In this document: one piece after another, positions 4,471 to 48,308 of the stretch
Layout of the letters: every line of letters begins with the position of its first letter
How positions within the stretch are numbered: the first letter of the stretch is position 1
Assembly: GCA_019426215.1 (NCBI GenBank)
Contig: CM033391.1
Location: 12,016,708 to 12,080,707, forward strand
DNA: 64,000 nucleotides
Direction: 5' to 3'
DNA from: Buddleja alternifolia
Lineage: Eukaryota; Streptophyta; Magnoliopsida; Lamiales; Scrophulariaceae
Notes under the pieces: generated by a model
Told to the model about the DNA's origin: nothing
Database searches by the model: none
The model's input: only the letters and a program-made list of their open reading frames with translations
Made by a program: the position numbers and the translations under genes

Positions 4471-4948
4471 TGATGATAGTAAAAATAGTCGGAGTATGAA
4501 TGTCACGTGATCGACCACATGAGGTGAATGAAATCGCTCCAACACACGACAAACTAGGTGGGAGTTGGTGGATTATAGACTGCACTCGACTATGGCGAGC
4601 TGCCTACGTATCCGGATTGTTGGGATCAAGTCTATTTGTAGTTCGATGATGGGATTACTCTCTATTGCCAGTGTGTTTTTTACTAGGGGAGTAGATAATG
4701 CTTTACCTCCAGCTCTTTTGGGGTATTTATAAGGAGCTGGTTATAAGTTTGGGCTCTTGGGCCCTACCTTATCATAAGCCCAATAGGCTTGGTTTAATTA
4801 TTACATTTATTAAGCTAGAGGAAAAACTTTCTTGCTTACTGGGCTTCCAGCCCTTCTACCGCGGGCCCTGACCTGTGGCGGTAGTCGCGACCCTACTAAG
4901 GGGCGAATGAAATACTAGAAAACCCTTAGACATTTTTGGCCGGCATCA
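4471..4948 (-). repeat. 3' LTR of the Tat-like element
   Basis: This 478-bp terminal repeat matches 16704-17202 along its length. It begins TGATGATAG on the plus strand and ends GGCATCA. Confidence 0.92.
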
Positions 4949-4962
4949 TATGCCCCCCATTC
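4949..4962 (-). other. Polypurine tract of the Tat-like element
   Basis: On the minus strand GAATGGGGGGCATA lies directly before the 3' LTR. This is the position and base composition of the primer for plus-strand synthesis. It also fixes the element's orientation as minus. Confidence 0.75.
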
Positions 4963-5189
4963 CCGGGTTTACTTCGCAATTTAACCACGGGAGTATGAAA
5001 GTCACTCCGCGTGATGCCAAACTATTCTATCTGGACTGGGATGGAAGCCTTAAACTTTCCCCACCTACTTTTCTATTAATAGGGAGTAGGTGAGATAGTT
5101 CTTTCACTCTTCACTTCTTACTAACTCTTTCACCTTTTGAGAGATCCTTTTGAAAAGTGAGAAATTTCTTGAAAAACTTTCCTCATCTC

Positions 5190-7417: not shown

Positions 7418-8054
7418 TAGTTTTTTGCATAGTATATTTGGCTTTATTTTTAGCTGGTCTTTCGGTTTTTGACTATTTGTAGTCTCCAAGACCTTTGCTT
7501 ACTTTTAGTTTATGCACCTGACTAGTTTCTTTTAAGTCGTTATATCTTTTGTCTTTGTGATTCCTTGTGGGTTCGTTCTCATGCCTTTTCATAGCTGCTA
7601 CCCCCTGCCCCTACTCCCTAATATGTTGACCATGTTTGGGAGTGAGTAGCTAAGTAGTGCATGATCGAAGCATGTCGTCAGGGTTGTTTATTTTGTGGCA
7701 CGTTGTGCCTTATTGAACATCCATCAGCTAATTCGCTGTGGTATTTTAATGGGGGTGTGGTCGCCTCAAGTTTGCTTAGTTTGTATAACCTCGTTCTAGA
7801 ATCTTAAGGGGAGTGGGGAGACCTTCTGTAGATCCTCAACCTCTCTCGATATTACTGGAAGGATAATGGGGTGGCCCATCCTCGTTCGAGTATTTGAAAA
7901 CTCGGGGGACTTTTGCGGTGACACCCTTATTGACCTCAAGTGGGGTCACAAGTATTAGATTTGGCTTATCACCTATAGTGGAAGCTTAGTCCCACATTAA
8001 TGGGCGGGAAGTGCAAGCATTCATTCATGAAAAATATACTAACATGGTAAAGAG
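7418..8054 (-). other. 3' non-coding part of the Tat-like element
   Basis: This spacer lies between the end of the antisense ORF and the nested gag-only element. No reading frame is supported. The same spacer resumes at 12626 after the nested insertion. Confidence 0.6.
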
Positions 8055-8059
8055 GGGTG

Positions 8060-8865
8060 TGTAGACAAATAAAATTTGTAGCCAATTAAATGGCGACACG
8101 TGTAAATTAATATCAAATAAACTCATTCATTTATATTTAAGGATTTAATAAAATTTTATCCTTAAATTAGATAATTGAATAATTGATATTTAAATACTTC
8201 TTGCATTGGCCAATTATGAGGTGCCATGTGGCAATTTAATCATAATTAAATCAAATCAACAACTTAAATATGGTAGTGATTGCTAATTAAATAATGGTGA
8301 TTTTGGAAAAGTCTTTCATCCCTACAACTATAAATAGGGGTTCAAATTCAAGGATTCAACCACCAATTCACCAATTCACAAGTGCATTTGAGCAAGAGAA
8401 GACAAGAGAAGTTCCCAAATTCTCTCTACAAGTTCTTCACATTCAAGAAGTCGTTCAAGGCAAACTTCAAGGCGTTCTAAGCAAAATTCATCAAATTATA
8501 ACGTTTGATTCGATATTAAGGTGCTAAACCCTCGAATAAACGTTATATAAGTTCAAATCAAGTTATAGGAAGATCAAAGCGACGAGTCAACCTTGAAGCT
8601 TTCAACTTTCCCAAATCATTTACATCGTTTGATCTGAAATTAAGCTATCGAGCCCTCGCATCAACGTTATAAACATTGAAATCCACATTGAAGAAGATCA
8701 AAGAAGCGATTTCTGCTCCAATATTCAAATCAAAGTTCTTGAAGTGAAGAATCAGAGGATAAATAATTAGAGATTTGTACTCATTAAATCGTTTGATTCA
8801 ATTAAATATATTTTGTACAACATTTCTTGTTTGTTAAATTGCAGACTTAAAATTTGTTGTTTACA
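8060..8865 (+). repeat. 5' LTR of the gag-only element
   Basis: This 806-bp repeat is paired with 11814-12620. It has a TATAAATA promoter box at 8329-8336. Confidence 0.92.
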
Positions 8866-8937
8866 AATTTTGGCACGCCCAGTGGGACTATCTCTACCTC
8901 TCATCTCTTCACTTCATCAAAAGTTCAAAGTTTCACA

Positions 8938-10584
8938 ATGAATGCCCCGAAGAAAGCATCGTTCCAAATCGCCGCTTCAATTTCTTCAAGTGCTACGGTC
9001 AATGGTATCGGCGTCGTGACGAGGAGCATGTCCAAAAGACTTCAAACATCTTCTGAGTCGACTCATTTCCTTAGATCTGTTAAAAAGGAGTTGCATCATC
9101 TTAGCAACATACGCGATGGTGATGAATCTCCTCCAACCTCCCCTCGGTCGACATCAAGTTACTCATTTACTTCAAACATAGCTCCTGTTATGATGACAAA
9201 TGCTACAACTCTGGAAGAACAAATGGCTAACTTGACAAAGATTATCGAGGGATTTGCCAAGCATATGGAAGAACAAGATTCTCAAATCTCAAAATTGATG
9301 AATAGAATGGATAATAGCGAGGCTAGTCGCTCACAAGGAAAACAACCGGAAATCCGCGATGAAGCCGAAGCATCTGAAAGGCAACAATCAAAGAGAAATG
9401 AGAAATCTCCCATTGAAGAGTTTCAGGTATCGTCAGATGGATTGATCCCCATTGATCAGCTGAAGGAATTTATCATGGGAACTATCAAAGATAAACTCGA
9501 TGGAGGTTCCAAGTCATCGTTGGCTTACACGAAGCCATATACCCAAAGAATCGATAGACTCAAATTCCAAGTCATCGTTGGCTTACACCAACCTCCCAAA
9601 TTCCATCAATTCGAAGGTTTGGGTAACCCAAAGCAACACGTAGCCCATTTCATTGAAACGTGTAATAATGCTGGGACTTACGGAGACCATCTCGTCAAGC
9701 AATTCGTCCGGTCACTTAAAGGTAATGCATTCGACTGGTACACGGACTTGGAAGCTGGATCAATTGATAATTGGGAACAGCTGGAACATGAATTTCTCAA
9801 CCGCTTCTACAACACCAGGAGGACTGTTAGCATGGTGGAGCTCACTAACTCTCGCCAGTGGAAAGAAGAAGCAGTTATTGATTATATCAATCGTTGGAGG
9901 AATTTAAGCCTCAATTGCAAGGATCACTTATCTGAAGCATCAGCCATAGAAATGTGCATCCAGGGGATGCATTGGGGTCTTCGGTACATCCTTCAAGGGA
10001 TTCAACCCAAGACATTTGAAGAACTAGCTACCCGAGCACATGATATGGAGCCGAGTATGTCATCAAGTGGAATTGGGGGACCACCCATCCAAAATCCTTA
10101 GAGAGTCGTAGAGAAACAAGAGTTCAAGAAAGGGGGTAAATCATTTTCCAAAGCCCCAAACAAAGAGTCTATGGTAGTGAATGCAGCACCCATCAAGTTG
10201 CGAGCTAAGGTAAATGATGTGAACGACGGAAAGAGAGATACTTCGCAAGATAAAGTGCAAAGAAGATCAACTTTGAAAGAAATGCAAGCAAAGCAATACC
10301 CGTTCCTTGACTCCGATGTCTCTAGAATATTTGATGACTTGCTTAATGCAAGTCTCATCGATCTGCCTACGATGAAACGACCAGAGGAAGCCGGGCGTAT
10401 AGATGATCCTAAATAATGCAAGTATCATCGCCTAGTGGGGCACCCAATTCACGACTGTTTCACATTCAAAGATAAAGTGATGCAGCTGGCTCGTAAAGGA
10501 AAGATATCTCTCGAAGAAGATAACGTAACTGCCAACGTCGTATCTGTCACGTTTAGGTCATCTAAGGTTATGATAGATAAGTAA
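8938..10584 (+). pseudogene. Gag polyprotein gene with two in-frame stops
   Basis: The frame opens at ATG 8938, just after the LTR and PBS, and encodes 387 residues to a TAG at 10099. The same frame continues to a TAA at 10414 and on to 10584. The central part ([18 protein letters not shown], then [10 protein letters not shown] and [15 protein letters not shown]) matches the Retrotrans_gag capsid family. Past the second stop a Cys/His cluster (CKYHR then GHPIHDC) resembles the C-terminal zinc-binding part of Gypsy gag proteins. The gag packages the element's RNA into particles. I chose the ATG because the upstream open frame lies in the LTR and lacks an ATG. The stops suggest this copy is inactive, unless readthrough occurs. 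Confidence 0.8.
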
Positions 10585-11813
10585 TGTATATATACAACGC
10601 CTTACATATATATATATAGATAGATAGATAGAGAGAGTTTTCTTACTCATGCTTAAATGGGTTCCTGCATAACCATTCTATGGAAAAGAGAATTAGTCAA
10701 TTCTTCAGGTATTCAGTATTCTTCATTATCACCTTTAATCTGAATGCTTGCATTTTCCATACTTCTGAACACTAAGAACCGATCCAATGTTCGTTATTTT
10801 CTGTTAATTCGTATACTCAAATCTGTTTCTGGATTGTGGAGATCTTGTTATGAAATTTAGTCAAAAAAAATCAGATTTCAAAAAAAAAGAGGGTCAGTCG
10901 TTCTCGCATTTCGTCGGCGTGTCGTGTGTGAAATTACAGGAAATGAGAAATCAAAATATGATATACACATAACTTACCAAGTTGCAAGAAATACGAACCT
11001 GAAAAAGCCACACTCCTTTGATGTATGCAAAGAAAAGAGAGGAGCAAATTTCTTTTTCTTTCGATTACTGGCCGAGTTGCAAGAAAAAAGAAAAGGAAGA
11101 AGAGCAGATTTTTGTGTGTTTCAAACTAGAACTCAGCCCCTATTTTATAGTGTGAAATGAAAGCTATGAAAAGATTAATCAAAAGAAAATGGGAAACAAG
11201 ATAAGAAAAGTTAAGGAATCAGAGTAAATGAGGAAAATACTTTTCTTAATAAATTCAAAAAGTCATGCAAGTGCTATAAACATTACAGAATAAAAGGAAG
11301 ATGTTGTTTGAACTAAAGCAAGCAAAAAGGGATGCATTGCTGTTCTTATTGTTGTTGGTTGATCATGTTCTGGAAGAAGAAAAAGGATGAAGATGCTATG
11401 TAGCCGGTTCATTACACCATAAGTTGTTGGGCTCAAAGAGAAATAATAACAAAGGCTTGGGTTTTCTTGTTTAAATTTGGAAAGTCTTCCTTTGAGCTGC
11501 AAAACTGAAGCTACTAATGGGCTAAATTAGTCCAACAAAGCTTGATTATATCTCTAACTGGTAGGCCTTTTTATTAAAAAAAAAAGACCAGGCTGCTCTT
11601 TGAACATTAAAAGGAAACGGAGTTGTGGATCTCAAATTAAAGGGTCCAAGAATAAATGTACTGGATCACCTGTCCAAATCTTTGGTCATTTTTTCTAATT
11701 CCAAAGTCTACATGTATTCAGCGAAGCCCAACTGTGAAAATCAAAATGTCGCGACTTATCCACTCAAGACGCGACTTCAAGCATCATTCGCGGACAAGTC
11801 GCGAGGGGGCATT
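10585..11813 (+). other. 3' non-coding region of the gag-only element
   Basis: No pol-like sequence is visible. It contains a TA/GATA/GA microsatellite at about 10601-10637, AT-rich spacer and, at its end, the purine-rich tract GAGGGGGCATT next to the LTR. Confidence 0.7.
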
Positions 11814-12620
11814 TGTAGACAAATAAAATTTGTAGCCAATTAAATGGCGACACGTGTAAATTAATATCAAATAAACTCATTCATTTATATTTAAGGATTT
11901 AATAAAATTTTATCCTTAAATTAGATAATTGAATAATTGATATTTAAATACTTCTTGCATTGGCCAATTATGAGGTGCCATGTGGCAATTTAATCATAAT
12001 TAAATCAAATCAACCACTTAAATATGGTAGTGATTGCTAATTAAATAATGGTGATTTTGGAAAAGTCTTCCACCCCTACAACTATAAATAGGGGTTCAAA
12101 TTCAAGGATTCAACCACCAATTCACCAATTCACAAGTGCATTTGAGCAAGAGAAGACAAGAGAAGTTCCCAAATTATCTCTACAAGTTCTTCAAATTCAA
12201 GAAGTCGTTCAAGGCAAACTTCAAGGCGTTCTAAGCAAAATTCATCAAATTATAACGTTTGATTCGAGATTAAGGTGCTAAACCCTCGAATAAACGTTAT
12301 AGAAGTTCAAATCAAGTTAAAAGGAAGATCTAAGCGACGAGTCAACCTTGAAGCTTTCAACTTTCCCAAATCATTTACATCGTTTGATCTGAAATTAAGC
12401 TATCGAGCCCTCGCATCAACGTTATAAACATTGAAATCCACATTGGAGAAGATCAAAGAAGCGATTTGTGCTCCAATATTCAAATCAAAGTTCTTGAAGT
12501 GAAGAATCAGAGGATAAATAATTAGAGATTTGTACTCATTAAATCGTTTGATTCAATTAAATATATTTTGTACAACATTTCTTGTTTGTTAAATTGCAGA
12601 TTTAAAATTTGTTGTTTACA
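11814..12620 (+). repeat. 3' LTR of the gag-only element
   Basis: This 807-bp repeat is paired with 8060-8865, with about 13 differences counted by eye. It is followed by the TSD GGGTG. Confidence 0.92.
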
Positions 12621-12700
12621 GGGTGCTTAGGCACTCGAATGTATTTCTTAAAACATTACTGACAGTCATAGAAAAAATCAGTTGACGAGTATAAAATTTA

Positions 12701-13912
12701 TTAAGTAAAATACCTTTTGAGGTTAGATATACCCCATGTTCTTGGTACCTCCTTACCCTCTGCGGTCATTAATTTAAAAGTGCTAGGGCCCACTACCTCT
12801 CTCACTTGGTATGGACCTTCCCACTTGGCCTCCAGCTTTCCAACGGACCAGTGGCATCTTTCCTTCTGAGCACCAAGTCTCCTACCAGGAAGCCTCGGGG
12901 GAGTACTTGACGGTTGTACGCTCGTGCCATCCTTGCCTTATACTTAGCAATTCTAGCAGCGGCTTCATCTCTGACTTCAGTGATGAAATCTAAGCTCTCC
13001 CTGCGACGCTGCTCATTGTGAGCAAGGTCGTATTGGCTTATCCTCAGACTCTTTTCTCTGATTTCCACCGGGGTTATGGCCTCATCTCCAAACACTAAGT
13101 TGAAAGGGGTCTCCCCAGTGCCAACTCTGGGAGTGGTCCAATATGACCTTAGTCCCGCAGGAATTTCGTCTGCCCAACACCCTTTTGCTCCTCCCAGATT
13201 AGTCTTTAGGTATTGCAGTATAGTGCGGTTCGTTACCTCCGTTTGACCATTTGCTTGCGGGTTGCTCACCGAGGTAAAATGTTGTTTAATGTTAAGCTCC
13301 TGGAACCATTTCCTCAACTTCGCCCCTTGGAATTGGGTGCCATTATCTAATACTAAGGATCAGGGGATCCCAAAACCTGTGATGATATTCTTCCATAAGA
13401 ACTTCATTACTTCTTTTTTAGATATTTTGGCTAGCGGTTCGGCCTCCACCCATTTGGTGAAATAGTCGATGGCGACTAAAAGAAACTTTTTCTGACCAGT
13501 GGCTAAAGGGAATGGCCCCACTATATCGAGCCCCCACATATCAAAAGGGCACGCGCTTTCTAGTGGTCGGCTCTCAGAGCCAGGCAGATGGCTTATGTTG
13601 GAGTGCTCTTGGCAGCTTCTGCATTTTAGCACGAAGTCTTGAGTGTCTTTAAGCATCGTGGGCCAAAAGTACCTCTGCCTTAGAGTTTTAGCTGCTAGTG
13701 CCTTGCCCCCCCAAGTGATTACCACAACATCCCTCATGTATCTCGCGCAGTACATAGTTAGCTCTGGCGGGGGTTAGACACTTCAAGTAGGGCTGTGAGA
13801 AACCTCTCTTGTATAGTTCGCCATCTATCATCACAAATCTCGCCGATCTCACTCTAATTCTCCGAGCTTGCTTGGGATTGTCGGGTAGGCTTGCTGTTAT
13901 CAAATAGTCCAC
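12701..13912 (-). pseudogene. Gypsy integrase, broken
   Basis: Integrase inserts the element's cDNA into the genome. The N-terminal zinc-binding part (EIHEGCCGNH, later KCRSCQEH) and the catalytic core (WGLDIVGPF, then LVLDNGTQF, then NPQANGQTEVTNR) are recognisable, so all three acidic residues of the DDE triad remain. Three lesions break the frame. A seven-G run at about 13709-13715 causes a shift just after GNHLGG. A TGA at 13362-13360 fits a CGA to TGA change. A shift near 12835 separates the C-terminal part, which ends with a segment like PRTWGISNLKRYFT and a stop at 12703-12701. No chromodomain is seen. Confidence 0.85.
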
Positions 13913-13942
13913 TATTTCATCTTTCCAGCTGGGTTCCTCTAC

Positions 13943-14460
13943 TTACCCGAATAGCACCTCTAGGCCTCCCTTTTCAACTTCCGATTTCTCGGAGGTGATG
14001 AGGGTCACCTGTCGGTTCTTTATGGAGGCTGTGGAGCTTGCCAGTTTCGCCGGCTGATCAACAGCTTCATTTTCAAACCTCGGGACCTGCCTTAGATCGA
14101 ATTCTTTGAACCGCTCCCTTATTTCTTGAACGGGAGCTAGGTACTGACGTATCCTTTCTTCTTTAGCTTCATACTCTCCGCTTGCTTGGTTGACTACTAG
14201 TTGTGAATCGCTGCATGCGATTATCTTTCTTGCTCCTGCAGCTAGTGCTAGTTTGGCTACAGCTAATAGTGCTTCATACTTAGCTTCGTTGTTCAAGGCT
14301 TTGAATCTGAACCTTACAGCGTACTCCAATTTGTCTATGCTGGTGGAAGACCCATCTACGAACAGTGTCCATGTGGGTAGAGAAAAACAAGCTTCTTTCT
14401 CCGACATCTCGGCTACAAAGTTGGCTAGCACTTGTGCTTTGATGGCTGGTCTTCTTTGAT
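13943..14460 (-). pseudogene. RNase H domain of the Gypsy polyprotein
   Basis: This domain degrades the RNA strand during reverse transcription. Acidic motifs are visible in order: FVDGSST, NNEAKYEALL and SDSQLVVNQ. A C-terminal ENEAVDQPAKLAS aligns with the usual end of the domain. The sequence type resembles the second, archaeal-like RNase H found between RT-RNase H and integrase in Tat-lineage elements. It is separated from the RT segment by stops, so it is part of a decayed polyprotein. Confidence 0.75.
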
Positions 14461-14491
14461 ATTCTATGCCATGCTCGCTGAGTTCTACTGC

Positions 14492-16640
14492 CTATTTGAC
14501 CATTCGTCCCAACACATCGGAACTCGACAATACCCTCTTCAAGGGGTGATTAGTGAGTACCACCACAGGATGCGATTGGAAGTAGGGTCGTAGCTTTCTC
14601 GCAGCAACTACTAGAGCTAGGGCCGACTTCTCGATGAGGGGGTATCTTGGCTCGGCCGCTCGTAGTAGACAACTGATATAATAGATGGGCTTATGATCCC
14701 CATTGTCATCTCGGACCAGCACCGAGCTGACAGCCTCATGGGTCTCTGCTAGGTACAGGTAAAGAGTCTCTCCATCAACGGGTTTAGTGAGAAATGGCGT
14801 GGAGATTAAATATTCTTTTAATTTCTCAAACGCCACCTGACACTGTGCATCCCACTCAAAGGCTTTCGCTTTCCTTATCGCCTTAAAACATGGCAATCCC
14901 TTATCAGCTGACCGCGAGATGAACCTATTGATGGCTGCCGCCCGCCTCATAAGCTCTTGCACTTTCTTCTTGAATCTAGGGGGTGCCAACTCCAGTATGG
15001 CCCTGATTTTTTTTGGATTAGATTCTATTACTCTCTCGCTTATCATGAACCCTAGGAACTTTCCCCCACGTACTCCGAAGGTGCACTTGGCTGGGTTGAG
15101 CTTTAGCTTGTAATGCTTGAGTGCTCCGAAGCATTCCTGTAGGTCTAGCACGTGGTCTGCTTCCCGTTTACTTTTGACTAGCATACCATCTATGTATGCC
15201 CCTATGTTCCTTCCTAATTGTGCTTTGAACATCTTATTGATCAGCTTTTGATAAGTTGTCCTCTCATTCTTCAGCCTGAAGGGCATGGCGTTGTAGCAGA
15301 ATGTCCCCTGGTCAGTAATGAAGCTAGTCTTCTCCTGGTCATCCGATGCCAAAGGAATTTGATTGTATCCTTACCTTGCGTCCAGGAAGGTCAACATCTC
15401 ACATCTGGAAGTAGAATCTATCAAGTCATCTATTCGGGGGAGAGGATAGGAATCCTTGGGGCATGCCTTGTTCAGATCCGTAACACTATACACATCCTCC
15501 ATTTGCCATTGGGTTTCGCCACTAACACTACATTGGCTAGCCACTTCGGGTAGTGCACAGGCCTTGTGTACCCGGCCGCTAGTAGATCCTCAACCTCTTC
15601 CTTAGCAGCCAAACTTCTCTCTCTCCCCATAGTTCTTTTGCGTTGCTTCACAGGATGGGCATCGGGATAAGTATTCAAGTGATGAGTCATGATCCAAGGG
15701 TCAATCCCCTCCATGTCAGCCGTGCTCCAAGAAAACACGTCGGTGTTGTCTTGTAAGAAGCGTGTCAACTCCTCTTCAAAGACGGATCCTAAGGTAGCGC
15801 CGACCTTCGTGGCTTTCCCAGGATGGCCAGGTACTAGTTCAATCATCTTCAGGCTCTTGAGTGCCTCGCCATGGGCTTTTCCGCCTTCTTCCCATGCCTT
15901 AGTTAATCTGCCTTCTGCTTGAGACACCATGTCAATTTCTATTAACTCCGGCCCAATCATAGGTCCGAGATCGCTCCGCTTTCTTTTGAGTGCATTGAAG
16001 CAATATTCCCTCGTCAGTTGCTTGTCCCCCGCGACCTCCCCCGTTTCGCTGGGAGTGGGGAACTTGAGTTTGAGGTAGAAGGTGGAGATAACATCCCGAA
16101 AGAGGTTTAAGCTCGGCCTCCCTAGTATAGCACTATACTCGGAGGGGGCTTTAACTATCAGAAACTTCACCTCTCACGTAATACGTTTAGGGAGTGTGCC
16201 CAAGGACAACGGCAAGGTCACCTCCCTTTGAACGTTGATTGTGTCGCCTGTGAAGGCTACCAGTTGGGTTTTCACTGCTGGAACATTGGCCTCTCCAATG
16301 GACAGCCTATTGAAAGCGTCAGAAAAAATGATATCCGCGGAGCTTCCACTGTCAATTAGGATTTTGCACACCCAGGAATCTGCTATAGTGGCAGAGATCA
16401 CTAAAGCTTCATTCCAGGAGGGGATCCGATGTTCCAGATCTCGAGCTCTGAATGAGATGCTCGGTGTCTCAAATCCTTCCTGAGCGACGCATCCTTTGCT
16501 TTTGCCGGCACTCGGCGATGGCAGCTCACACGAGATCTCATACGCCCCCATGGTGAGGGGTGGGATCTCAGTTGGCGACATCGGAGGTGCTGTCCTTCCA
16601 CGCGCCCTAGCTACCTGCAGCAAACTGCCGCCATTTTTTT
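14492..16640 (-). pseudogene. Gypsy protease and reverse transcriptase, broken
   Basis: An aspartic protease motif (ILIDSGSSADIIF, near 16350) is followed by the RT N-terminal part (PKWLANVVLVAKPNGKWRM). A frameshift follows at about 15480. The RT palm and connection then run from 15352 to 14492. The frame is also interrupted by a TAA at 15373-15371. The palm active site reads YIDG where YVDD or YIDD is expected (codon at 15187-15185), so one catalytic Asp is lost. RT would copy element RNA into DNA; this copy cannot. Only about 150-250 bp separate the PBS from the protease, so gag has been deleted. Confidence 0.88.
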
Positions 16641-16682
16641 TATTACTACCCTTAGTCTGCATACTCAATGGTTGGAACGCGG

Positions 16683-16700
16683 TTTCCACAGACGGCGCCA
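16683..16700 (-). other. Primer-binding site of the Tat-like element
   Basis: On the minus strand TGGCGCCGTCTGTGGAAA starts 3 nt inside the 5' LTR. The first nine bases match the complement of the tRNA-Asp 3' end as I remember it. This PBS form is common in plant Gypsy elements. Confidence 0.7.
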
Positions 16701-16703
16701 ATC

Positions 16704-17202
16704 TGATGATGGTAAAAATCGTCAGAGTATGAATGCCACGTGATCGACCATGTGGGGTGAAGGAACCGCTCCAAAGCACGATAAATTAGGTGGGGGTTGG
16801 TGGATTATAGACTGCACTCGACTATGGCGAGCTGCCTACGTACCCGGATTGCTGAGATCAACTCTATTCGTAGTTCGATGATGGGGTTACTCTCTATTGT
16901 CAGTGTGTTTTTTACTGGGGGGAGTAGATAATGCTTTACCTCCAGCTCCTTTGGGGTATTTATAAGGAGCTGATTATGGGCCATGGGCTCTTGGGCCCTA
17001 CCTTATCATAAGCCCAATAGACTTGGTTTAATTTTTACATTTATTAAGCTAGAGGAAAAACTTTATTGCTTACTGGGCTTCCAGCCCTTCTCGAGCTGGG
17101 CCAGCCCTTCTATCGCGGGCCCTAACCTGTGGCGGGCGTCGCGACCCTACTCGGGGGCGAATGAAATACTAGAAAACTCTTAGACATTTTTGGCCCGCAT
17201 CA
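16704..17202 (-). repeat. 5' LTR of the Tat-like element
   Basis: This 499-bp repeat is paired with 4471-4948. It carries an extra 21-bp tandem duplication near 17090-17110. A minus-strand TATAAATA (16964-16957) is the likely promoter box. Confidence 0.92.
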
Positions 17203-17278: not shown

Positions 17279-17512
17279 TAACCTTATATATGGTAATTGA
17301 TATTCTAAAATATATATAGTTTGTCCACACAAACTTTCTTTTTTCTTCTTCTTTTTTTTAACCTTATATATGGTAATTGATATTCTAAAATATATATAGT
17401 TTGTCCATACAAACTACAAACTTTCTTTATTCTTCTTTTTTTCTTAACCTTATATATAGTAATTGATATTATAAAATATATATAGTTTGTCCATATAAAC
17501 ATTCTTTTTTCT
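17279..17512. repeat. Three-copy tandem repeat, unit about 80-85 bp
   Basis: Three units start with AACCTTATATATGGTAATTG or close variants near 17279, 17360 and 17446. Each ends in a pyrimidine-rich TTTCTTTTTTCTTC stretch. The flanking parts of 17208-17867 hold no recognisable gene. Confidence 0.85.
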
Positions 17513-17993
17513 TTTTTGGTGCAAGTTCAGGCGTCCCCTCTAGGTTGTAAGCAAAAGTGTTATTGTTCCCGGCATTTCGACTTGTGCGGGGTTGTCTATC
17601 TTTATAAGTAAGTTACCGAAGAAAAAAAAACATGACAAAAGGTTGTCATGCAAGTGCAACTCGTCGTGTAAGATATGGCTATTAATATAAGCGTATAAGT
17701 TATAACTGATTTTACTCTTTTAATAGTAGTTAAAAAAATGAAGTTGAATTTAACGGAGGTAGAGATGAAACAACTAAGGCTGCTGATAGTGCCATAGCAA
17801 TTTCCCTCTTGCCAGATCAAATATTTTAAATGGGTTATATCAGAATATCAAATATTTGAGATCCCATTTAAAATATTGGAAAATTGGAGAAAAATCCCCA
17901 ATCATTATTGAAATTTAGTGATCAATCCCCCCTCATGATTCCAAAGCTTCAACTCCCTAATTTGACCAAAAACTTTATTCTAACTCCTAATGG

Positions 17994-18410
17994 ATGTCAA
18001 AAGACAAAAATCACCCCACTAACATAACATATTACATTATGCCATTTTCTTTTCTTTTCTACTTTCCTTATCTATTTTCTATTTCTATTTTTTTATTATT
18101 CTTTTTATTTTCCATTTCCTCTCATCCCACACCCACTCAGCCACCCACCTCTACCCCAACTGCCGCCACAGCCACCGCCACCGCCGGTGAACGGCGACCT
18201 ATGATCGGCCAACCACCGGCGATGACCGGCGAACCACTGGCGGCAGTGAACCAATTCCGACTACTATTGGTTATGACGGCGACACCTCTGGCGACCACCA
18301 CCAACGTCGGCTACACCTCCAGCAACCACAATCGTTGCCAGCGATACCTCCGACGACGACCACTACCCTTTTTGGCACCACCTTCTATCCTCAACATCAA
18401 GTATGATTAA
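17994..18410 (+). other. GC-rich open frame near the left TIR
   Basis: A 138-residue frame spans the inner TIR and a GC-rich stretch (about 18120-18400) rich in CCACCG and CGGCGA triplets. Its translation is rich in Thr, Ala and Pro and matches nothing I recognise. Mutator-like elements often capture host gene pieces, and this could be one. Nothing shows that it is translated. Confidence 0.3.
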
Positions 18411-18535
18411 AGCTAACAAGAAGTATGATTACATTTATGAAGAAGTATGGTTAAAGTATACTTGGCGTATGAATACACTAGAGATGAAGTATAAATAAAG
18501 AGAACATGAAGTATGATTGTAGTAAACTATTAACA

Positions 18536-20300
18536 AATTTAAGCTTAAGTTTGAACCCAAATCTGTTTTATACTAGAATGTTTTTGATAATGTGTGATAT
18601 ATTTCTGGAATGCCCTGTGTGTCTACTTTGAAAGAAAAAAAGTGGTTTATGATTCCGAGCATTGTACAATACGTTATGGACTTTCTCGTGAAGTTGCGCA
18701 AAACTGTCAATAAATTTAAGCTCACATTTGAAGCCAAATCTGTTTTATACTAGAACGTTTTTGATAATGTGTGATATATTTCTGGAAAGACCTATGTGTC
18801 TACTAATAAAAAAATGGTTTATGATTTCGAGCATTGTACAATGCGTTATGGACATTCTCGTGAAATCGCGCAAAACTGTCAATACATTTAAGCTTATGTT
18901 TGAAGCTAAATCTGTTTTATATTAGAATGTTTTTGATAATGTGTGATATATTTCTGGAAATTCCTATGTGTCTTCTATGAAATAAAAAAAATGGTTAATG
19001 ATTCTAAGCATTGTACAATATGTTATGGACATTCTCGTGAAGTCACGCAAAATTGTCAATAAATTTAAGCTTACATTTGAAGCCAAATCTATTTTATACT
19101 AGACCTTTTTTGATAATGTGTAATACATTTCCAGAAATAACTAAGTGTCTACTATGAAACAAAAAAAATGGTTTATGATTCTGAGTATTGTACAATATGT
19201 TATGGACTTTCTCGTGAAGTCGCGCAGAAATGTTAATAAATTTAAGGTTACGTTTAAAGCCAAATCTGTTTTATACTAGAACGTTTTTGATAATGTGTAA
19301 TACATTTCTGGAAAGAAATATGTGTCTACTGTGAAATAAAAAAAATGGTTTATGATTTCGACCATTGTACAATGCGTTATGGAAGTTCTCGTGAAATCGC
19401 GCAAAACTGTCAATACATTTAAGCTTATGTTTGAAGCCAAATCTGTTTTATATTAGAATGTTTTTGATAATGTGTGGTCTATTTCTGGAAATACCTATGT
19501 GTCTTCTATGAAATAAAAAAATGATTTATGATTCCGAGCATTGTACAATACGTTATGGGCTTTCCCGTGAAGCCACGGAAAACTGTCAATAAATTTTAGC
19601 TTACATTTGATGCTAAATCTGTTTTATAATAGACCCTTTTTGATAATGTGTGATACTTTTATAGAAATACCTAAGTGTCTACTATGAAAGAAAAAAAATG
19701 GTTTATGATTCTGAGTATTGTACAATACGTTATGGACTTTCTCGTGAAGTCGCGCAAAACTGTTAATAAATTTAAGGTTATGTTTGAAGCCAAATATGTT
19801 TTATACTAGAACGTTTTTGATAATGTGTGTACATTTCTGGAAAGACCTATGTGTCTACTATGAAATAAAAAAAATGGTTTATGATTTCGAGCATTGTACA
19901 ATGCGTTATGGACGTTCTCGTGAAATCGCGCAAAATTGTCAATACATTTAAGCTTATGTTTGAAGCCAAATCTGTTTTATATTAAAATGATTTTGATAAT
20001 GTGTGATACATTTCTCGAAATCCCTATGTATCTTATATGAAAGAAAAGAAATGGTTTATGATTCTGAGCATTGTACAATATGTCATGGACTTTCTCGTGA
20101 AGTCGCGCAAAACTGTTAATAAATTTAATGTTACGTTTGAAGTCAAATCTGTTTTATACTAGAACGTTTTTGATAATGTGTGACACATTTCTGGAAAGAC
20201 CTATGTGTCTAATATGAAATAAAAAAAATGGTTTATGATTTCGAGCATTGTACAATGCGTTATAGACGTTCTCGTAAAATCGCGCAAAACTGTCAATAAA
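18536..20300 (+). repeat. Satellite array, ten ~176-bp monomers
   Basis: A landmark (TTTTTGATAATGTGT or variant) recurs with its G at 18596, 18763, 18935, 19112, 19289, 19466, 19642, 19819, 19995 and 20172. After the first two shorter steps the spacing is 176-177 bp. A second conserved block reads CTCGTGAARTCGCGCAAAAC. Monomers fall into types that recur in order, giving a repeat of about 528 bp over most of the array. The monomer length is in the range of plant centromeric satellites, but I do not recognise this family. Confidence 0.9.
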
Positions 20301-21190
20301 TTATGACCACGTACGTCATTAGACAATGTACATACGTCGTTATGCTAAAAACTTACGTTGTTCCTTCACAACTAATACGTCATCTTCAATGTTGACATAC
20401 GTCCTTTATATTTATTAGATACATCCTTTCAGTTGTTACAATATAACATTTCATATGTAATAGTACTTCGGTTTGTTTGAAATGTATAATTTATATGTAC
20501 TAATACGTCAACTTTGTTGACCACATACGTCATTTTGCTAAAAACGTACGTCGTTCATTTACAGCTAATACATCATCTTCAATGTTGACATACGTCTTTT
20601 ATATTTATTAAATACATCCTTTCAGTTGTTATAATACAATATTTCATATGTAATAGTACATCGGTTTGCTGTTGAAATACATCATTTGAAATGTATAATT
20701 TATATATATATTAATACGTCAACTTTGTTGACCACGTACGTCATTAGACAATGTACATACGTCGTTATGCTAAAAACGTACGTCGTTCCTTCACAACTAA
20801 TACGTCATCTTCAATGTTGACATACGACAATTGATATGTAAGAATACGTCAATTTATATGCGACCATGCGTCAATTGATATGTAAGAATACGTCAATTTA
20901 TATTTAGTCATACATCAATTAATATGTAAGAATACGTCAATTTATATGCAGCCACACATCAATTGATATGTAAGAATACATCAATTTATATGCAACCATA
21001 CAACAATTTATATGCAACCATATGTCAATTGATATGTAAGAATACGTCAAATTATATGTAATCATATGTCATTTGATATGTAATAATAAGTCAATTTTAT
21101 GTAATAATACGACATTGCAACGTCGTAATACGTAATTGTATATTCATCATATTAGTCGTAACAATATATTTTGTGACGATACGTCATATT
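20301..21190. repeat. Array of ATACGTCAATT-type short repeats (left arm)
   Basis: Dozens of copies of a short motif around TACGTC or ATACGTCAATT occur with irregular spacing of about 20-45 bp, often followed by TATATG. One longer block (about 20305-20400) recurs near 20515 and 20730. The motif is the reverse complement of the one in the right arm (21835-25455). Confidence 0.85.
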
Positions 21191-21636
21191 ATTGGTAAAG
21201 ATACGTCATAAATGAACAGTATTAAATATTTATACTCAAGTGTATAAATATCTCAAAATTGTAAATTCTTACACATAAAGTCAAGTGATAACTAGTAGTA
21301 GTGTAGATATACATAGTGTTTGGTATATCTATTTAATGCCTATTTTGCTCCAAATATGTTGTTAAATGCATGTTCATGACATTATAAATAATAATTATTA
21401 AATATATAACATGCCTAAGTATAATCATGTGTATACGTATCTCAAAACTACAAACTCACACGAAAAGTCAAGTGATCACTACTAGTAGTATATGTGAACA
21501 TTGAGTTTTGGAAACAAAAAATAATACTAATTAGTGAAAAAATGTACATTAAATTATATTAAATGCATAATTTTCTTACATATTTGTGAACATTGAATTT
21601 CGAAACATTTAATTTTAGGGTATGTGATGTCATAGT
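21191..21636. repeat. AT-rich spacer with a diverged duplication
   Basis: Two related blocks, about 21232-21330 and 21415-21505, share CTCAAAA, a TACAAACTC-like stretch, AAGTCAAGTGAT and ACTAGTAGTA in the same order. No coding sequence is seen. Confidence 0.55.
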
Positions 21637-21804
21637 GTTTAGGATTTAGGGTTTAGGGGTTAGGATTTAGGGTTTAGGGGTTAGGGTTTAAGGTTTAGGG
21701 GTTAGGGTTTAAGGTTTTGGGGTTAGGGTTTAAGGTTTTGGGTTTAGAGTTTAGGGTAGGTTTAGGGGTTAGGGTTTAAGGTTTTGGGTTTAGAGTTTAG
21801 GGTA
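21637..21804 (+). repeat. Degenerate telomere-like repeat block
   Basis: About 168 bp is composed of TTTAGGG, TTTAGGGG, TTAGGG and TTTAAGG variants in one orientation. TTTAGGG is the usual plant telomere repeat. The block lies between the two oppositely oriented TACGTC arrays. Confidence 0.85.
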
Positions 21805-21834
21805 AGTATTATTACATATGAAATGATGTATTAT

Positions 21835-22373
21835 TAAAACTAAAATGATGTATTAATAAATATAAGGCCGTACGTTAACATTTAAGATGATGTATTATTA
21901 ATAAAATGACTTACGTGTATATTCTATCGACGTATGTTTATAGTCTAATGACGTACGTATGTAATCTAATGACGTACATACGTATGTATAGTCTAATGGT
22001 GGTCCTTGTGGATCGATTAATGGAATTGGTCATTTTAAGGAATTTTTAGGCGGTCCTTGTCGACGTATTAATACATAATATTGACGTATGAATGCAAGTC
22101 AATTGATGTATTATTTTCTGAAATCGACGTATGATTGTCTATCAATTGACGTATGAATGCTAATCAATTGATGTATTATTGTCTATCAATCGACGTATAG
22201 GTACACTTAATATGACGTATTAATACATAATATTGACGTATTAATGAAAGTGAATTGAGGTATTATTTTCTGGAAATCGACGTATGATTGTCTATCATTA
22301 ACATAATAATACATTTAATATGACGCATTAGAACATTTCAATTGACGTATGAATTTTAATCAATTGACGTATT
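21835..22373. repeat. Array of GACGTAT-type short repeats (right arm, first part)
   Basis: Repeated motifs such as AATTGACGTATGAATGC and TCAATTGACGTATTATT occur in the inverse orientation to the left arm. The array is split by the solo LTR and resumes at 24478. Confidence 0.85.
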
Positions 22374-24472
22374 TGTTAGAGTTTATGCCCGGCGCACCAA
22401 TTTTGGGCGCCATTCTATGTAATAATAACTCTAGCTAAACGATCTTTTTCATATAAATAAAGTTAATCTTGTGGCATTCTTTATTCGTTTATATAGCTTG
22501 GTCTTAATTTAGAATAAAGTCCCTAAGGGCCACACATAGCTATGGGACATCATTGCGCATCAGAAATGGCAATGATGGAATATGTCTCCAAGGCTGTGAT
22601 CCTTAAACATATGTTCCAAGTCGTGAATGGGCTCGTCGAGATGAAGGGATATCGATGAGACCCAAAAGACTTGCTTATATGATGCATACTCTTGATAGAG
22701 TGTATCTCGTTCCATAGATATTGGCACGGTGAAAGCCTATGCATATATGAGGGTTCCTATTGTGGGAATAGGTATACTGAACAACTCCATGGAAGTTCCA
22801 TTAAATGGAATCCCAGTCGAATCTGGAACTTCCAGTGGTCTTGTAGTATAAGAGTAATCCTTAGAACCTGAGGTTCTATTTGATGTCTTATACACAATCG
22901 AACACGTCGTGATTTGTTACATGATTACTTAGATGATCACAAATGGGCAAAATCAGACATGGGCTGATTGTGTATGAAGGCACGTGAGAATCAAGATGGG
23001 ATCTATCTCTGACATTAGTCTTGTCAGTGAATCTCCTATGTTTACATAGTGAATCGACTTTAGGAATCTTCGGCCGAAGTATGATATCTAAAGAGGCATA
23101 GGGTTTCCTCATTTAGATAGTCGACAGTCGATCTCACCGTATTTGGGAAACATAGTTATTGAATTAATAGAGTTTTGACCTTAGCCACTGCTCTAGATTC
23201 AATCGGGAGATTAGATGGAGGGATCTTACTTATACAAGGATCAAGATCACGAAAGACATATCTTTGTCTTAATCTTTATCTAGGTCTTCGTGGCCCGTTG
23301 CTAGACAGTAACCTCGATTTGTAAGTGCCGAGAATTAATGAGGTGATTAATTCGAGGCTTGATTGACTCAAAGGAATGATTTAATCTAGTACTTTCTATT
23401 TTAGGAAAGTACACTAGCACTTTGGGAAAGTGTACTTACTACTAGATAGTAGACGAGCCTAAAGGGTCACACACTTAACTCGTGAGAGTCACTGCTTAAA
23501 TGATGTGATTAATCAATTTGAGGAAATTGAGGAAATTAGGAAAGTCTAGTCCTTTCCTAATATAGAATATGAATTAATTGAGGCGATTCAATTAATTCGA
23601 CTATTTTAATTAATCTTGTAGAATTAATTAAATTAATGGACCTAGTAGAGTCCAAGTATTTAATTTAGTTGGGCTTGACCCAAGTTAAATAAATAAGCCA
23701 ATTGGAATAAGTTAATATAATTAAACGGATTTTAATTATAAGGGAATATTTAATTGATGGGTTTAGCCCATAATTAAATATGGAGTCAAGAATTAATTCT
23801 TGGACTTCAATAAAAGAAGGTTGCCGAATTTTAGCCCAAAAGGATGAGGGATTCGAACTCTTGATGAAGAAGAAAAGAGTTTTCTTCTTCTCCAAGTCTT
23901 GCAATTGGATTAGGACTCTAGGACTCCTATTCTATATATATGTGATTGCAAGACTAAAAACCCTAAGCTTCTAAGAGTGCAAAATTCGAACTTCACAACT
24001 GGAAAAGATAAGAGAATTTTTCTTGTCATCCTCAAGCAAAAATCGGCCCTTCCCTTGTTCCAATACGACATCGTTTTGTTCATGTGTTGAACTTAACGAT
24101 TCACATAGTCCATCCCTTCACATAATCAAGCCTAGGTTTTAGACTTAGATCTATTTCGTTGGCTAGCACCAATAACGAAGTAGGTGGTGACTTGAACGAG
24201 GTGTGGATACATCTTAGAGGTGCGGCGTTTGGAGCACTTATACTGGAGATACAATTGACGGGCAATTTCCTCCAAGGAATCGTGTGGAATTGCACCACAA
24301 TGTTGAAAAGATCAAATTGGTTGCTGTGAGAATTTAATCGAAAGGTAAAAATTCTTGCAACCTTCTTTATAGCGTAATCGACCACACCATTATTCCTGTT
24401 TCGGGTGGTCGTACGTTTAAATTTTAAATTCCGCTGCCACGAGCCACCCGGGGAATAGAACCCAACCCAACA
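22374..24472. mobile_element. Solo LTR, Copia-type, about 2.1 kb
   Basis: The block begins TGTTAGAGTTTATGCCC, ends ACCCAACCCAACA and is flanked by a perfect 5-bp TSD, GTATT (22369-22373 and 24473-24477). The repeat array continues on both sides. No internal region, PBS or PPT is present, so this is the product of recombination between two LTRs. Its start and the late ATTCCGCTGC motif resemble the Copia LTRs further right in the window. Confidence 0.88.
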
Positions 24473-24477
24473 GTATT

Positions 24478-25455
24478 ATTGTCTATCAATCGACGTATAG
24501 GTACACTTAATATGATGTGTTAATATATAATATTGACGTATGAACACAAGTCAATTGAAGTATTATTTTCTGAAATCAACGTATGATTGTCTAGCAATTG
24601 ACGTATGATTGCTAGTCATTTGACGTATCAATGTTAGTCAATTGACGTATTATTTTCTGAAAATGACGTATGGTTGTCTATTAATTGACGTAATAATACA
24701 TTTAATATGACGTATTAGTACATTCAAATTGACGTATGAATGCTAGTCAATTGATGTATTATTGTTTATCAATCGACGTATAGGTACACTTAATATGACG
24801 TATTAATACATAATATTGACAATGAACGCAAGTCAATTGACGTATTATTTTTTGAAATCAACGTATGATTGTCTATCAATTGATGTATGATTGCTAGTCT
24901 ATTGACGTATGAATGCTAGTCAATTGACGTATTATTTTCTGGAAATGACGTATGGTTGTCTATTAGTTGACGTAATAATAAATTTAATATGACGTATTAA
25001 TACATTCAAATTGACGTATGAATGCTAGTCAATTGACGTATTATAGTCTATCAATCGACATATAGGTACACTTAATATGACATATTAATACAAAATATTG
25101 ACGTATTAATGCAAGTGAATTGACGTATTATTTTCTGAAAATCGCCGTATGATTGTCTATCAATTGACGTAATAATACATTTAATATGATGTATTAGTAC
25201 ATTTCAATTGACGTGTGAATGCTAGTTAATTGACTTGCAACCATACGTATTAGTACATTCAAATTGACGTATGAATGCAAGTCAATTGATGCATTATTGT
25301 ATATCTATCGACATATAGGTACACTTAATATGATGTATTAACACATAATAATATTGACGTATAGTTGTAAGTCAATTGCTGTATTATTTTCTGGAAATCA
25401 TCGTATGGTTGTCTATCAATTGATGTAATAATACATTTAATATGACGTATGAATG
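24478..25455. repeat. Array of GACGTAT-type short repeats (right arm, second part)
   Basis: This continues the array interrupted at 22373. Larger composite units of about 300 bp recur, each with the order GTACACTTAATATGACGTA, TTATTTTCTG, GTATGATTGTCTATCAATTG. Confidence 0.85.
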
Positions 25456-26170
25456 CATATAAATTTTAGCTTATGTTTAAAGAAAAAACTGTTTAATTCT
25501 AGACATTTCTTGATAATGTGTCATACTATTTCAGAAAGCCCTATATGTCTAATTTTAAAATAAAAAAGTAGTTTATTAGTTCGAGCATCGTATAGTGCGT
25601 TATAGACTTTCTCGTGAAATTGCGCAAAATTGCTAGCACATTTTAACTTACGTTTGTAGACAAAACTGCTTCATCCTAAACCTACCTTGATAGCGTGTCA
25701 TACATATTAAGAACTCTCTATGTTTCTATTTTCTAAATAAAATAACGATTTATGATTTTGAGCATTCTACAATGCGTTATAGAATTTCTCGTAAGATTGA
25801 GCAAAACTATAGAAAAATTCTAGCTTACGTTGAATAAAAATTTGTTCCATATTAGATTGTTTTTGATAATATGTCATACATTTTATGAAAGCCCTACATG
25901 ACTACTTTGAAAGAAAAAAAATAGTTTATGATTCCGAGCATTCTACAATGCGCTATAAACTTTCTCGTGAAGTCGCACAAAACTGTCATTAAATTTTAGC
26001 TTATGTTTGAAGCAAAAACTGTTTTGTACCAGACGTTTCTTGATAATGTGACACACTTAGTTAGAAATCTCTATGTGTCTGCTTTCAAAAGAAAAAAACG
26101 GTTTATGATTCCGAGCATGCTACAACGCGTTATAGAATTTCTCGTAAGATTGCGCAAAACTGTTAAATAT
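25456..26170 (+). repeat. Four more ~176-bp satellite monomers
   Basis: The TTGATAATGTGT-type landmark recurs with its G at 25512, 25689, 25865 and 26042 (spacing 176-177). These copies have the same orientation as the left array but are more diverged from it and from each other. Confidence 0.85.
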
Positions 26171-26606
26171 CAATTGAAAATACGTCGATTGTGCACGAAA
26201 TATACGTCGGACATGGCTTATGCATACTGTAGTTCTTGTTCGTATGAAATTCAAAAATAAAAATAAAAATTGTACTCGGAACATAATCAATATGGATCTC
26301 GATTTGTTCCTTTCATCATGGAAAACAAAATGGTGTCACTTTTGAACGACTTTAATCGCTGGAAAAGTCTATGTAATCAGATTTGTGATGAAGGGGAAAA
26401 GAAAAAAATAGGAAAGAGAAGAGAGAAGTGGAGAAGAAGGTGAATAAAAAATTAATAAATGGATTTTCGTCTTTTCAAGAGGGTAGGGAGTGAATCCAAA
26501 ATGGCAACATGAATTAAAGAGTTGAAAGTGTATAATTATAGATAGGGACTGATTCTTAATTTTTATTAGGGATTAGGGATTTTTGAATGATTTTCCCTTA
26601 AAATAT

Positions 26607-35816: not shown

Positions 35817-37346
35817 TGTTAGGAAACTTCATGTTAGATGTTTTGATGATGACAAGATAGGATTCAATGTTAGAACCCAAAAATGTAAGCTTTCCGTTTT
35901 TCCTAGATTGATGTATAAGCGTTTAAAAGTTTGTAAATTATTATTTCTATTTTGTTTAGGCTTGTAGTTTTTATCTTCATAGATTTTAGACTAAGTCTTA
36001 GTAACTGAATCGCTAGTAGAATTCTAGGTGAGTCTATTAGAGAAGAAGTTGAAGACCAGCGTCTGAAGTCAACCAGAGATAAAGATTTTCTTTTAAGCGC
36101 CTGTCAAACACTAAAAGACCATTTCAGGATATATGGATCAAGTGCTCAACTTGTCTCAAGCGATGGATGTAAGATTCACCTGAAATAAATCCTCAAGTCA
36201 TGAAGGACTTAAATGCAATCATTCAACGGACATTTATTTCCAACGGGAAATAAATTCAAATTGCATTAAATGCTTGATAAGAGCATTAAATGTGATAAGC
36301 TACTGTGACTTGTGGACAAGCCACCTTTTGAGCAGACTGTCAGAAACTTCAGAGTTTTAGCTGCTCCCGTCCAATCGGATTCAGCGAATTTTCAGGAATG
36401 TCAGACTTTAGGTATGATCACGCGCCACGTGAAAGGCACGCTTCTACATGTGTCCAACAGACAGATCCCAAGAAATTGCCTATAAATACCTTACTCCAGA
36501 AAACCCTAAATATAACAACGAGAATATACGAGAAATTATTGCTAAAATCTTACGTACATTCTTTCTGGAAAAAGCTTAGAAACCCCATAGCCAAAACCTT
36601 TCAAGCTTTCTATCTACATTCCAGACAGTCACAAATATCTCAATATCTTCCAAAGAAGAAATTCAAACTCCAACTGAGATATTCCAAGTTGTTTGATCTT
36701 CTCTAAAACAAACAAACCCTAGTGACAAACCTCAACCTTTCATCTGAGTGAGAAAAGTTGTTGAAACCTTTCAGGCAGTATTTCTGAGTGAGAGAAGCTT
36801 GAAGAAGACGATCTTCATTGGTGCTGAAGTCTGTGTGATCAAGGAGCCCAAGATCTTTTTCATCCATTACTATTTTGTAGAAGTTTCTGTGTGATTCTTT
36901 GATAATCATCATAGTAAATTCCTCCAAGTGAAAAAGGAGAAGAAGGACGTAGCTGGGATTACATCACCCAGTGAACCTTACAAATTATTGTGTCATTTAT
37001 ATTTTATTGTCTTATATTCATCACAGTATATTATTCTGAAAAAGACAAATAAAATTGCAAAGCGATTAACTTAACTAAAAGAACGCTAAACATTATTTCC
37101 GCTGTGCTAACCCTGATTAAGCGATCTAAGCGTTGCCCTACTTTGGTAAACTGCTGAAATCACTGAATCTAGCCGAGTTATCCTCTACTACAGGGGGTCT
37201 GATTCAGCGACCATCTGACCCAAGCGCTCAGCTTTCCAAGCGTTCAAATTTCTAAAGTGATACGAAAATTTGTGAGGTCGAAAAAGACTTCAGGGTCTAT
37301 TCAACCCCCCCTTCTAGACCCTTTCGTATGCCACTTGGGACCACCA
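35817..37346 (+). repeat. 5' LTR of the SIRE-type element
   Basis: This 1530-bp repeat is paired with 48327-49835. TATAAATA at 36481-36488 is the likely promoter box. It has an extra stretch of about 22 bp near 37180 that the 3' LTR lacks. Confidence 0.93.
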
Positions 37347-37348
37347 AG

Positions 37349-37360
37349 TGGTATCAGAGC
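37349..37360 (+). other. Primer-binding site of the SIRE-type element
   Basis: TGGTATCAGAGC, complementary to the initiator tRNA-Met 3' end, lies 2 nt inside the 5' LTR. Confidence 0.9.
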
Positions 37361-37462
37361 GGTTGAATTAGAAACCTAAGCGTTTCCGAGCATAACTTCT
37401 TGTTCAGATCCATTTTTTTTACTTAGTCGCTTTAATTTTTCTCTTAAAAAAAACATCTCATT

Positions 37463-39658: not shown

Positions 39659-39669
39659 AACTATCCTTA

Positions 39670-42600: not shown

Positions 42601-42912
42601 GGAAGCTGTTGTGCACAAATCCTTTGGATGAGGCAACAACTTAGAGATTATGGAACAATCCTAGGTCCTACCCCAATCCATTGTGATAACCAAAGCGCTT
42701 TAGCTATGACCCAAAGACCTGTCCTTCATTCTAGAACCAAACACATTGACATTAGATACCATTTCTTGTGTGACCATGTTCAAAAGAAAGATATCTCCAT
42801 GCATTTCATTGGAACTGACAAACAACTGGCAGATATCTTCACCAAAGCGCTCAACGAACAACGCTTTCTCACTTTAAGAAGTGACTTAGGTATGATCGAG
42901 TTAAACGCTTAA
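39670..42912 (+). CDS. Pol polyprotein of the SIRE-type element
   Basis: An unbroken frame of 1080 residues. In order: aspartic protease ([13 protein letters not shown], Asp15), the GAG-pre-integrase zinc region ([10 protein letters not shown] to CDACQMGK), integrase, reverse transcriptase with an intact YVDD (residues 766-769), and RNase H ([32 protein letters not shown]). The integrase has its first two acidic residues (LDLFGPI near 211; RSDRGTEF, Asp274), but position 310, where the catalytic Glu should be, is Ala (GVAARWNR). Gag ends in another frame 11 bp upstream, so expression would need a frameshift or readthrough. The start codon is a formal choice; protein may begin within the gag-pol junction. 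Confidence 0.93.
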
Positions 42913-48102: not shown

Positions 48103-48308
48103 TTTTTTTGTATTTTATTTCTTTCTTATTATTTTCAGCATAAATCATGTATGCTTTATTCTTTCAATATATATGAATGATTTATCGCTGAAACAACTTG
48201 TTGAAGCCAACCTAACTTCACTAACTTTTCAAACGCTGACTTATATTCCTTTGGGCCTTTTCTTTTTAAGTAACTCTTAAATTATAAAAGAGTTACAAGT
48301 CTTGACAT

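Follow-up and report, generated by a model that had tools for sequence, protein, structure and literature searches.

A 64,000-nucleotide stretch of Buddleja alternifolia DNA (contig CM033391.1, positions 12,016,708 to 12,080,707; the whole stretch is referred to below as the window) was found to contain a Mutator-like element (MULE) of 8721 bp, most of which consists of tandem arrays. The element lies at 17877-26597 between the two copies of a 9-bp target site duplication (TSD), and the Mutator-like finding as a whole spans 17868-26606. Two kinds of array were distinguished: a satellite with a 177-bp monomer and shorter arrays of a 22-bp unit with a conserved 10-bp core, ATTGACGTAT. The explanation that we favour, and to which about half of our confidence was given, is an old non-autonomous Mutator-like transposon, comprising cis-acting sequence only, that would carry protein-docking arrays together with a satellite amplified in place.

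The TSD, TTAAAATAT, was exact at both flanks (17868-17876 and 26598-26606), and its length falls within the range of 8-11 bp described for MULEs (PMC6446971). Directly inside it, the ends TGGAAAATTGGAGAAAAATCCCCAATC on the left and GGGAAAATCATTCAAAAATCCCTAATC on the right, both read inward, start an alignment of terminal inverted repeats (TIRs). By this alignment the left TIR was placed at 17877-18093 (+ strand, approximately 217 bp) and the right TIR at 26397-26597 (− strand, approximately 201 bp). The last third of the alignment was gapped and T/C-rich, and the inner limits of both TIRs are therefore soft. Of the first 141 alignment columns, 129 were ungapped and 88 of these were matches (68% identity); over 226 columns, 190 were ungapped and identity was 72%. 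The arms were thus long, as is usual for MULEs, alignable over approximately 200 bp and approximately 30% diverged. Local scores of 44, 66 and 92 were obtained within 60, 150 and 230 bp of the ends, respectively. The maxima of 1000 dinucleotide shuffles were 37, 52 and 62, and none of the 1000 reached the TIR score at any of the three lengths.

The TSD pair was also compared with all 16,888 exact 9-mer pairs lying 0.3-20 kb apart in the window. Its end-anchored ungapped extension scored 28 (over 86 bp), higher than that of any other pair; the runner-up scored 13. By plain 40-bp local score it was not first; array-internal pairs and some pairs elsewhere in the window scored above it. When 976 pairs of 150-bp segments were drawn at random from the window, the TIR score was reached once, by two segments that both lay inside arrays. 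When the window was searched with a two-end pattern at up to 3 mismatches, the matches were just the two element ends (shuffle mean 0.01). A coincidental TSD and TIR match in an ordinary heterochromatic repeat cluster, or an assembly artefact, would suit a window that is A+T-rich and repeat-rich and TIRs that are only about 70% identical, but in view of the first rank among the 16,888 pairs and the 1000 shuffles that fell short it was judged highly improbable. Membership in the Mutator-like class was drawn from the ends and the TSD alone and is well supported. The 9-bp TSD and diverged TIRs claimed in a preliminary description of this DNA were borne out.

Read from left to right, the left half of the element comprised the TIR, a G+C-richer stretch, weak + units, ten 177-bp monomers, 21 − units and the centre. 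From the centre rightwards, 62 + units split by an apparent solo long terminal repeat (LTR) were followed by four 177-bp monomers, weak − units and the TIR. Arrays covered 5256 of the 8721 bp (60%), or 79% once the solo LTR and its duplication were subtracted. The interior of organised tandem arrays that had been proposed was accordingly recovered, as 177-bp and 22-bp arrays. The preliminary reading, a Mutator-like element made mostly of arrays, was borne out in part, for the ends, the TSD and the array share; the movement of the satellite and the seeding of new loci that it proposed are considered below. Not part of that description were the conservation of a 10-bp core, the ordering of the strands, the ordering of monomers in threes and the nested solo LTR.

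The coding capacity of the element was assessed in 10 of its 14 open reading frames (ORFs) of at least 65 aa, five of the ten lying inside the solo LTR; an ORF scan of this kind could miss short exons. No Pfam family was found at cut-off in these frames, and the two matches listed (E 0.094 and 0.16) were far below the family cut-offs. In the frames tested no transposase was found, in keeping with the previous claim. Within the window no RNA family was found at gathering score.

Units of 22 bp were located with a position weight matrix (PWM) built from 35 exact GACGTA matches. At 7.5 bits, 85 hits fell inside the element, whereas the remaining 55 kb of the window had 2. Shuffles yielded 3 to 8 hits per strand per 64 kb, and one or two of the hits within the element may have arisen by chance. 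The hits were arranged from left to right in strand blocks of +1, −21, +62 and −1, with left- and right-half units on opposite strands. Spacing was 21 or 22 bp in 53 of the 62 + intervals and in 15 of the 21 − intervals. The 21 − hits formed an array at 20312-21213 in the ATACGTCAAT orientation, in which 13 exact TACGTCA were counted and no + hit occurred. The main + array, in the ATTGACGTAT orientation, was present in two parts, 21804-22373 (PWM hits all +) and 24473-25455 (+; PWM hits and column statistics). Outside the left satellite, diverged units of the GAAGTATGATT type were found at 18393-18518 (+), with one weak PWM hit of 11.9 bits; outside the right satellite, two ATACGTC units were seen by eye in inverted orientation at 26170-26220 (−), with one weak hit of 9.0 bits. 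With these outermost, weak units included, both 177-bp arrays are flanked by 22-bp units that point inward.

Conservation was measured by column. For the right array an independent alignment was used, in which every base was assigned to the 22-bp cycle without selection for GACGTA. In approximately 59 right units mean conservation was 0.91 for the 10 core columns, against 0.67 for the 12 of the spacer (column-shuffle P 0.009). Between the left and right consensus sequences, 10 of 10 core columns were alike, as were 6 of 12 spacer columns. Allowing at most one mismatch, the core matched 54 times in the window against 4.87 expected (50 inside the element, 21 exact).

We suggest that a DNA-binding protein provided in trans would dock on the 22-bp arrays and would read the core about every two helical turns. 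The protein may be the family transposase or a VANC-like anti-silencing protein, and we regard the two as equal alternatives. The arrays might instead act like an enhancer within the element by recruiting host bZIP transcription factors of the TGA/HY5 kind (TGACGT core). The core contains TGACGTA, which we take to be a bZIP-type site, and the mostly even 21-22-bp phasing would suit such recruitment, but no gene to regulate was found inside the element in the frames tested, and we regard this explanation as improbable.

CpG observed/expected ratios of 2.03, 2.42 and 1.95 were obtained for the three unit arrays. The satellite arrays had lower values (1.24 and 1.36), and the ratio was below 1 in the solo LTR (0.78), over the whole window (0.76) and in the Copia stretch (0.58). 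Within the CG of the unit core, 48 of 60 C and 55 of 61 G positions were intact; 10 of the C had changed to T and 4 of the G to A. The mostly intact core CG argues either against prolonged heavy methylation of these sites or in favour of fast array renewal. CpG decay in the 177-bp monomers was considered and rejected: transitions at CpG and at other C/G sites were 0.157 and 0.091 on the left and 0.143 and 0.193 on the right, with no consistent sign.

The left satellite array (18524-20302, +) comprised ten monomers and was defined with Tandem Repeats Finder (TRF), nhmmer, monomer identities and a tree. The right array (25456-26169, +), identified with nhmmer, comprised four monomers, more diverged and in the same, direct orientation. 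Counted by monomers, the ten lie at 18524-20285 and the four at 25450-26155. After a diverged first monomer, the left monomers followed the type order A-B-C-A-B-C-A-B-A. Excluding that first monomer, pairs of the same type were 88-95% identical and pairs of different types 82-89%. Types B and C formed clades in the monomer tree (local support 0.93 and 0.96, respectively). TRF, with periods limited to 500, slightly favoured a dimer (scores 2607 vs 2571). Judged by type order and identities, the left array looks like a trimeric higher-order repeat of approximately 531 bp. Right monomers were 67-77% identical among themselves and 66-81% identical to left monomers. These relationships fit a left array that was amplified in place and a right array that is older; the satellite would have grown through unequal exchange of three-monomer blocks. 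Within the monomer consensus, no match above 0.38 was found at lags 5 to 59. One 177-bp pattern was searched in bacterial/archaeal and viral collections with 0 matches each, and a plant repeat was not expected there.

The origin of the arrays was examined by similarity. Derivation of the tandem repeats from the TIR, as in the Drosophila virilis element Tetris, or of the 177-bp monomer from the 22-bp unit was rejected, with no similarity above shuffles. Satellite, units and TIRs were compared strand by strand in 12 combinations, and in each of these no fewer than 79 of 300 shuffles equalled or exceeded the observed score. In the whole set of comparisons, which also took in the centre, the closest was that of the unit with the centre on the − strand, whose score was reached by 24 of 300.

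Such dissimilarity, of satellite and unit to the TIRs and to each other, is what would be expected of foreign cargo. A MULE may thus have captured a pre-existing host satellite (for example a centromeric or subtelomeric 177-bp family and telomere-like DNA) as a passive passenger, with the 22-bp arrays as a captured minisatellite. Uptake of foreign DNA by MULEs has been described (PMC6446971), and the satellite-like 177-bp period with its trimeric order and the telomere-like run at 21633-21803 would agree with capture. By our reading of the alignment, however, both satellite arrays begin and end near the same monomer phase, and together with the inward 22-bp units, of which the outermost are weak, this points to one duplicated internal module. 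Monomer identity across the arrays is also only 66-81%, and therefore neither array is a fresh copy of the other. Capture was judged somewhat unlikely.

A foldback-type origin would make the inverted 22-bp arrays inner TIR domains grown by slippage, as in Tetris and in the Tm1 elements of root-knot nematodes, and they would then provide extra transposase binding or be mere hairpins. The left and right 22-bp arrays are mutually inverted, with arms of up to 155 nt at 70% complementarity among the 25 pairs listed of 207. For Tm1, TIRs that contain 13-15-bp tandem repeats are described, along with TSDs that are mostly of 9 bp (PMC3169594). The 177-bp arrays, however, lie direct and not inverted between unit arrays and TIRs, and the arms are therefore not mirror images; the 22-bp unit also had no similarity to the outer TIR above shuffles. 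With the 22-bp arrays inverted, the 177-bp arrays direct and neither related to the outer TIR, the tandem-repeat TIRs and mirror-image arms of foldback elements were not seen, and we consider this origin unlikely.

For the favoured non-autonomous transposon, the inward-pointing unit order around each 177-bp array leads us to infer that the interior may be two copies of one composite module, a step that stays inferential because the outermost units are weak. Its age was approached through the TSD. The two TSD copies are still identical, and the last insertion is therefore probably later than much of the TIR divergence; had all of that divergence followed insertion, nine unchanged TSD positions would be expected with a probability of approximately 0.03-0.05. 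It follows that an element already like this one probably moved. This argument is the sole evidence here for movement of the arrays and is weak. If the element did move with its satellite, the long-standing question of how satellite loci arise at new places would gain a concrete example from a plant.

Several observations weigh against the favoured explanation. No second copy of the element was found in the window by BLAST (E≤1e-4) or by the end pattern. The PWM was built from exact GACGTA and therefore leans towards that core. In approximately 15 left units (20785-21120), core conservation was 0.87 and spacer conservation 0.72, which was not significant (column-shuffle P 0.31). Turnover of the arrays, in the absence of selection, could likewise leave the core conserved and the spacer variable. 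The outermost units were single PWM hits within the range of shuffled windows, whose best scores were 10.4 to 13.4 (five plain shuffles, one strand); TRF independently detected a period-22 run at the left outermost units (18393-18518; 5.7 copies, 65% matches). The CpG ratio above 1 in the unit arrays arises partly because the motif itself holds CG, and T was present at 10 of 60 core C positions. In the monomer tree type A was not a clade, and fixed-lag matching gave no trimer signal (0.67 at 177 and 0.55 at 530), probably because small indels break the register.

The remaining parts of the element were as follows. The G+C-richer stretch of the left arm (18110-18392; GC 0.52 in the bin 18168-18467) holds a 139-aa low-complexity open frame. 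A captured gene was sought there and rejected, with no protein relative at E≤0.01 among 187 candidates, and the stretch had no similarity above shuffles to the right inner arm. The centre (21220-21803), delimited by alignment and TRF, comprises a diverged direct duplication and then a degenerate telomere-like TAGGGTT run (21633-21803; TRF period 7, 24.9 copies). This run lies in the CpG-poor middle of the element, where the CpG observed/expected ratio was 0.38. The apparent solo LTR (22374-24472) interrupts the right 22-bp unit array. It was identified from its TG...CA ends and a 5-bp TSD, GTATT, on both sides, and would be a later insertion and not part of the element proper. The element is 8.7 kb long now and would have been about 6.6 kb before this insertion.

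The long open frames in the window were Gypsy and Copia polyproteins. An apparent Gypsy element occupies 4471-17202, with an end pair (4471-4948 and 16704-17202) that is 87.6% identical, and the MULE lies approximately 670 bp beyond this apparent LTR pair. Nested inside the Gypsy element is another element, which contains a gag frame and whose two ends (8060-8865 and 11814-12620) are 98.4% identical. An A+T-rich tandem repeat with a period of 80-86 bp is found at 17279-17513, just left of the MULE. To the right, a Copia-type element of approximately 14 kb was found at 35817-49835, with 1.5-kb ends that are 96.9% identical; a related copy of its end (77-78%) lies at 56913-58390. Its extra 837-aa open frame (45302-47815) had no Pfam match at E≤0.01. 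One Copia frame had 6507 relatives at E≤1e-50. Among the 120 listed, identity was 43-67%, and the named relatives were mostly eudicots (Centaurea, Cuscuta, Tanacetum, Arctium, Cajanus, Carya, Trifolium, Citrus) with one orchid (Platanthera), which makes a eudicot host likely. A further tandem repeat (56021-56286, period 62-72 bp) has G-rich stretches in its consensus.

The element was finally compared with known systems, as these are described in excerpts of the cited sources. Among the open-licence literature listed, no title dealt with a MULE holding satellite arrays; a paper on a barley MULE concerns, in its excerpt, an unusual gene layout and not arrays. Tetris is a foldback DNA transposon with internal tandem repeats of approximately 220 bp and no apparent coding capacity, and has been proposed as a source of satellite arrays (PMC4079207). 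Its repeats are part of the TIRs and have 37 bp in common with the outer TIR domain (PMC4079207), whereas the 177-bp arrays here are direct and have no TIR similarity. Tm1, a Mutator/Foldback element, has, like the present one, TSDs of 9 bp and short repeats in tandem close to its ends. Its repeats, unlike those here, make up most of the TIR itself, and no satellite array is mentioned in the excerpt of that source (PMC3169594). The tandem-TIR MULEs of tomato, Arabidopsis, rice and maize are likewise mostly non-autonomous, and their repeats may aid recognition by the transposase (PMC3310237); a transposase-binding role has been suggested both for tandem TIRs (PMC3310237) and for foldback elements (PMC4079207). 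In those MULEs the TIRs themselves are repeated (PMC3310237), whereas here one TIR pair encloses unrelated arrays. The miDNA4 MITE (miniature inverted-repeat transposable element)/satellite of Xenopus is likewise a DNA transposon with an internal tandem array, whose copy number varies. It is, in contrast, a Tc1/mariner MITE in a frog, and the excerpt of the review describes no motif-unit arrays (PMC12628747).

The VANDALs of Arabidopsis share more with the present element. They are MULE-type elements with many copies of short motifs in tandem repeats of non-coding DNA, and the repeats targeted by VANC proteins grow, shrink and change together (PMC5735166, PMC10398659). A large tandem repeat has been described in the middle of a VANDAL3 member (PMC10342631). 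VANC21 binds YAGTATTAY, and VANC6 targets carry AGTTGTCC/AGTTGTAC (PMC5735166, PMC10398659). The core here differs from all of these, being ATTGACGTAT; the strand order around the 177-bp satellite is a further difference, and no vanA/B/C-like gene was found here in the frames tested. Two more points tell against the favoured explanation. The known motif YAGTATTAY was tried and rejected, with no enrichment (1 forward and 1 reverse match inside the element, 2 and 2 in the window), and the TIRs of VANDALs, by description degenerate, short or missing altogether, contrast with those found here, which are long though approximately 30% diverged. Some Brassicaceae members of the VANDAL clade do carry TIRs (PMC6446971).

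A bolder proposal, which we put forward as speculative and distinctly unlikely to hold in full, is that a plant MULE not assigned to the VANDALs built its own target array. Approximately 85 helically phased sites of the ATTGACGTAT type, inward around two satellite blocks and with CpG mostly kept in the face of methylation decay, would then be recognised by an anti-silencing protein or a transposase specific to the family. The process that made these arrays would also have converted an internal segment into a satellite with higher-order repeats, and the element would be both a platform for escape from silencing and a mobile satellite nursery. Its long TIRs, its different core and the absence of a partner gene from the frames tested keep us from assigning the element to the VANDALs. 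In anatomy, however, the element appears to be like the VANC system, which is the closest known case, and if its 22-bp arrays are binding arrays it would offer a further lineage in which the evolution of sequence-specific transposon escape from silencing can be studied.

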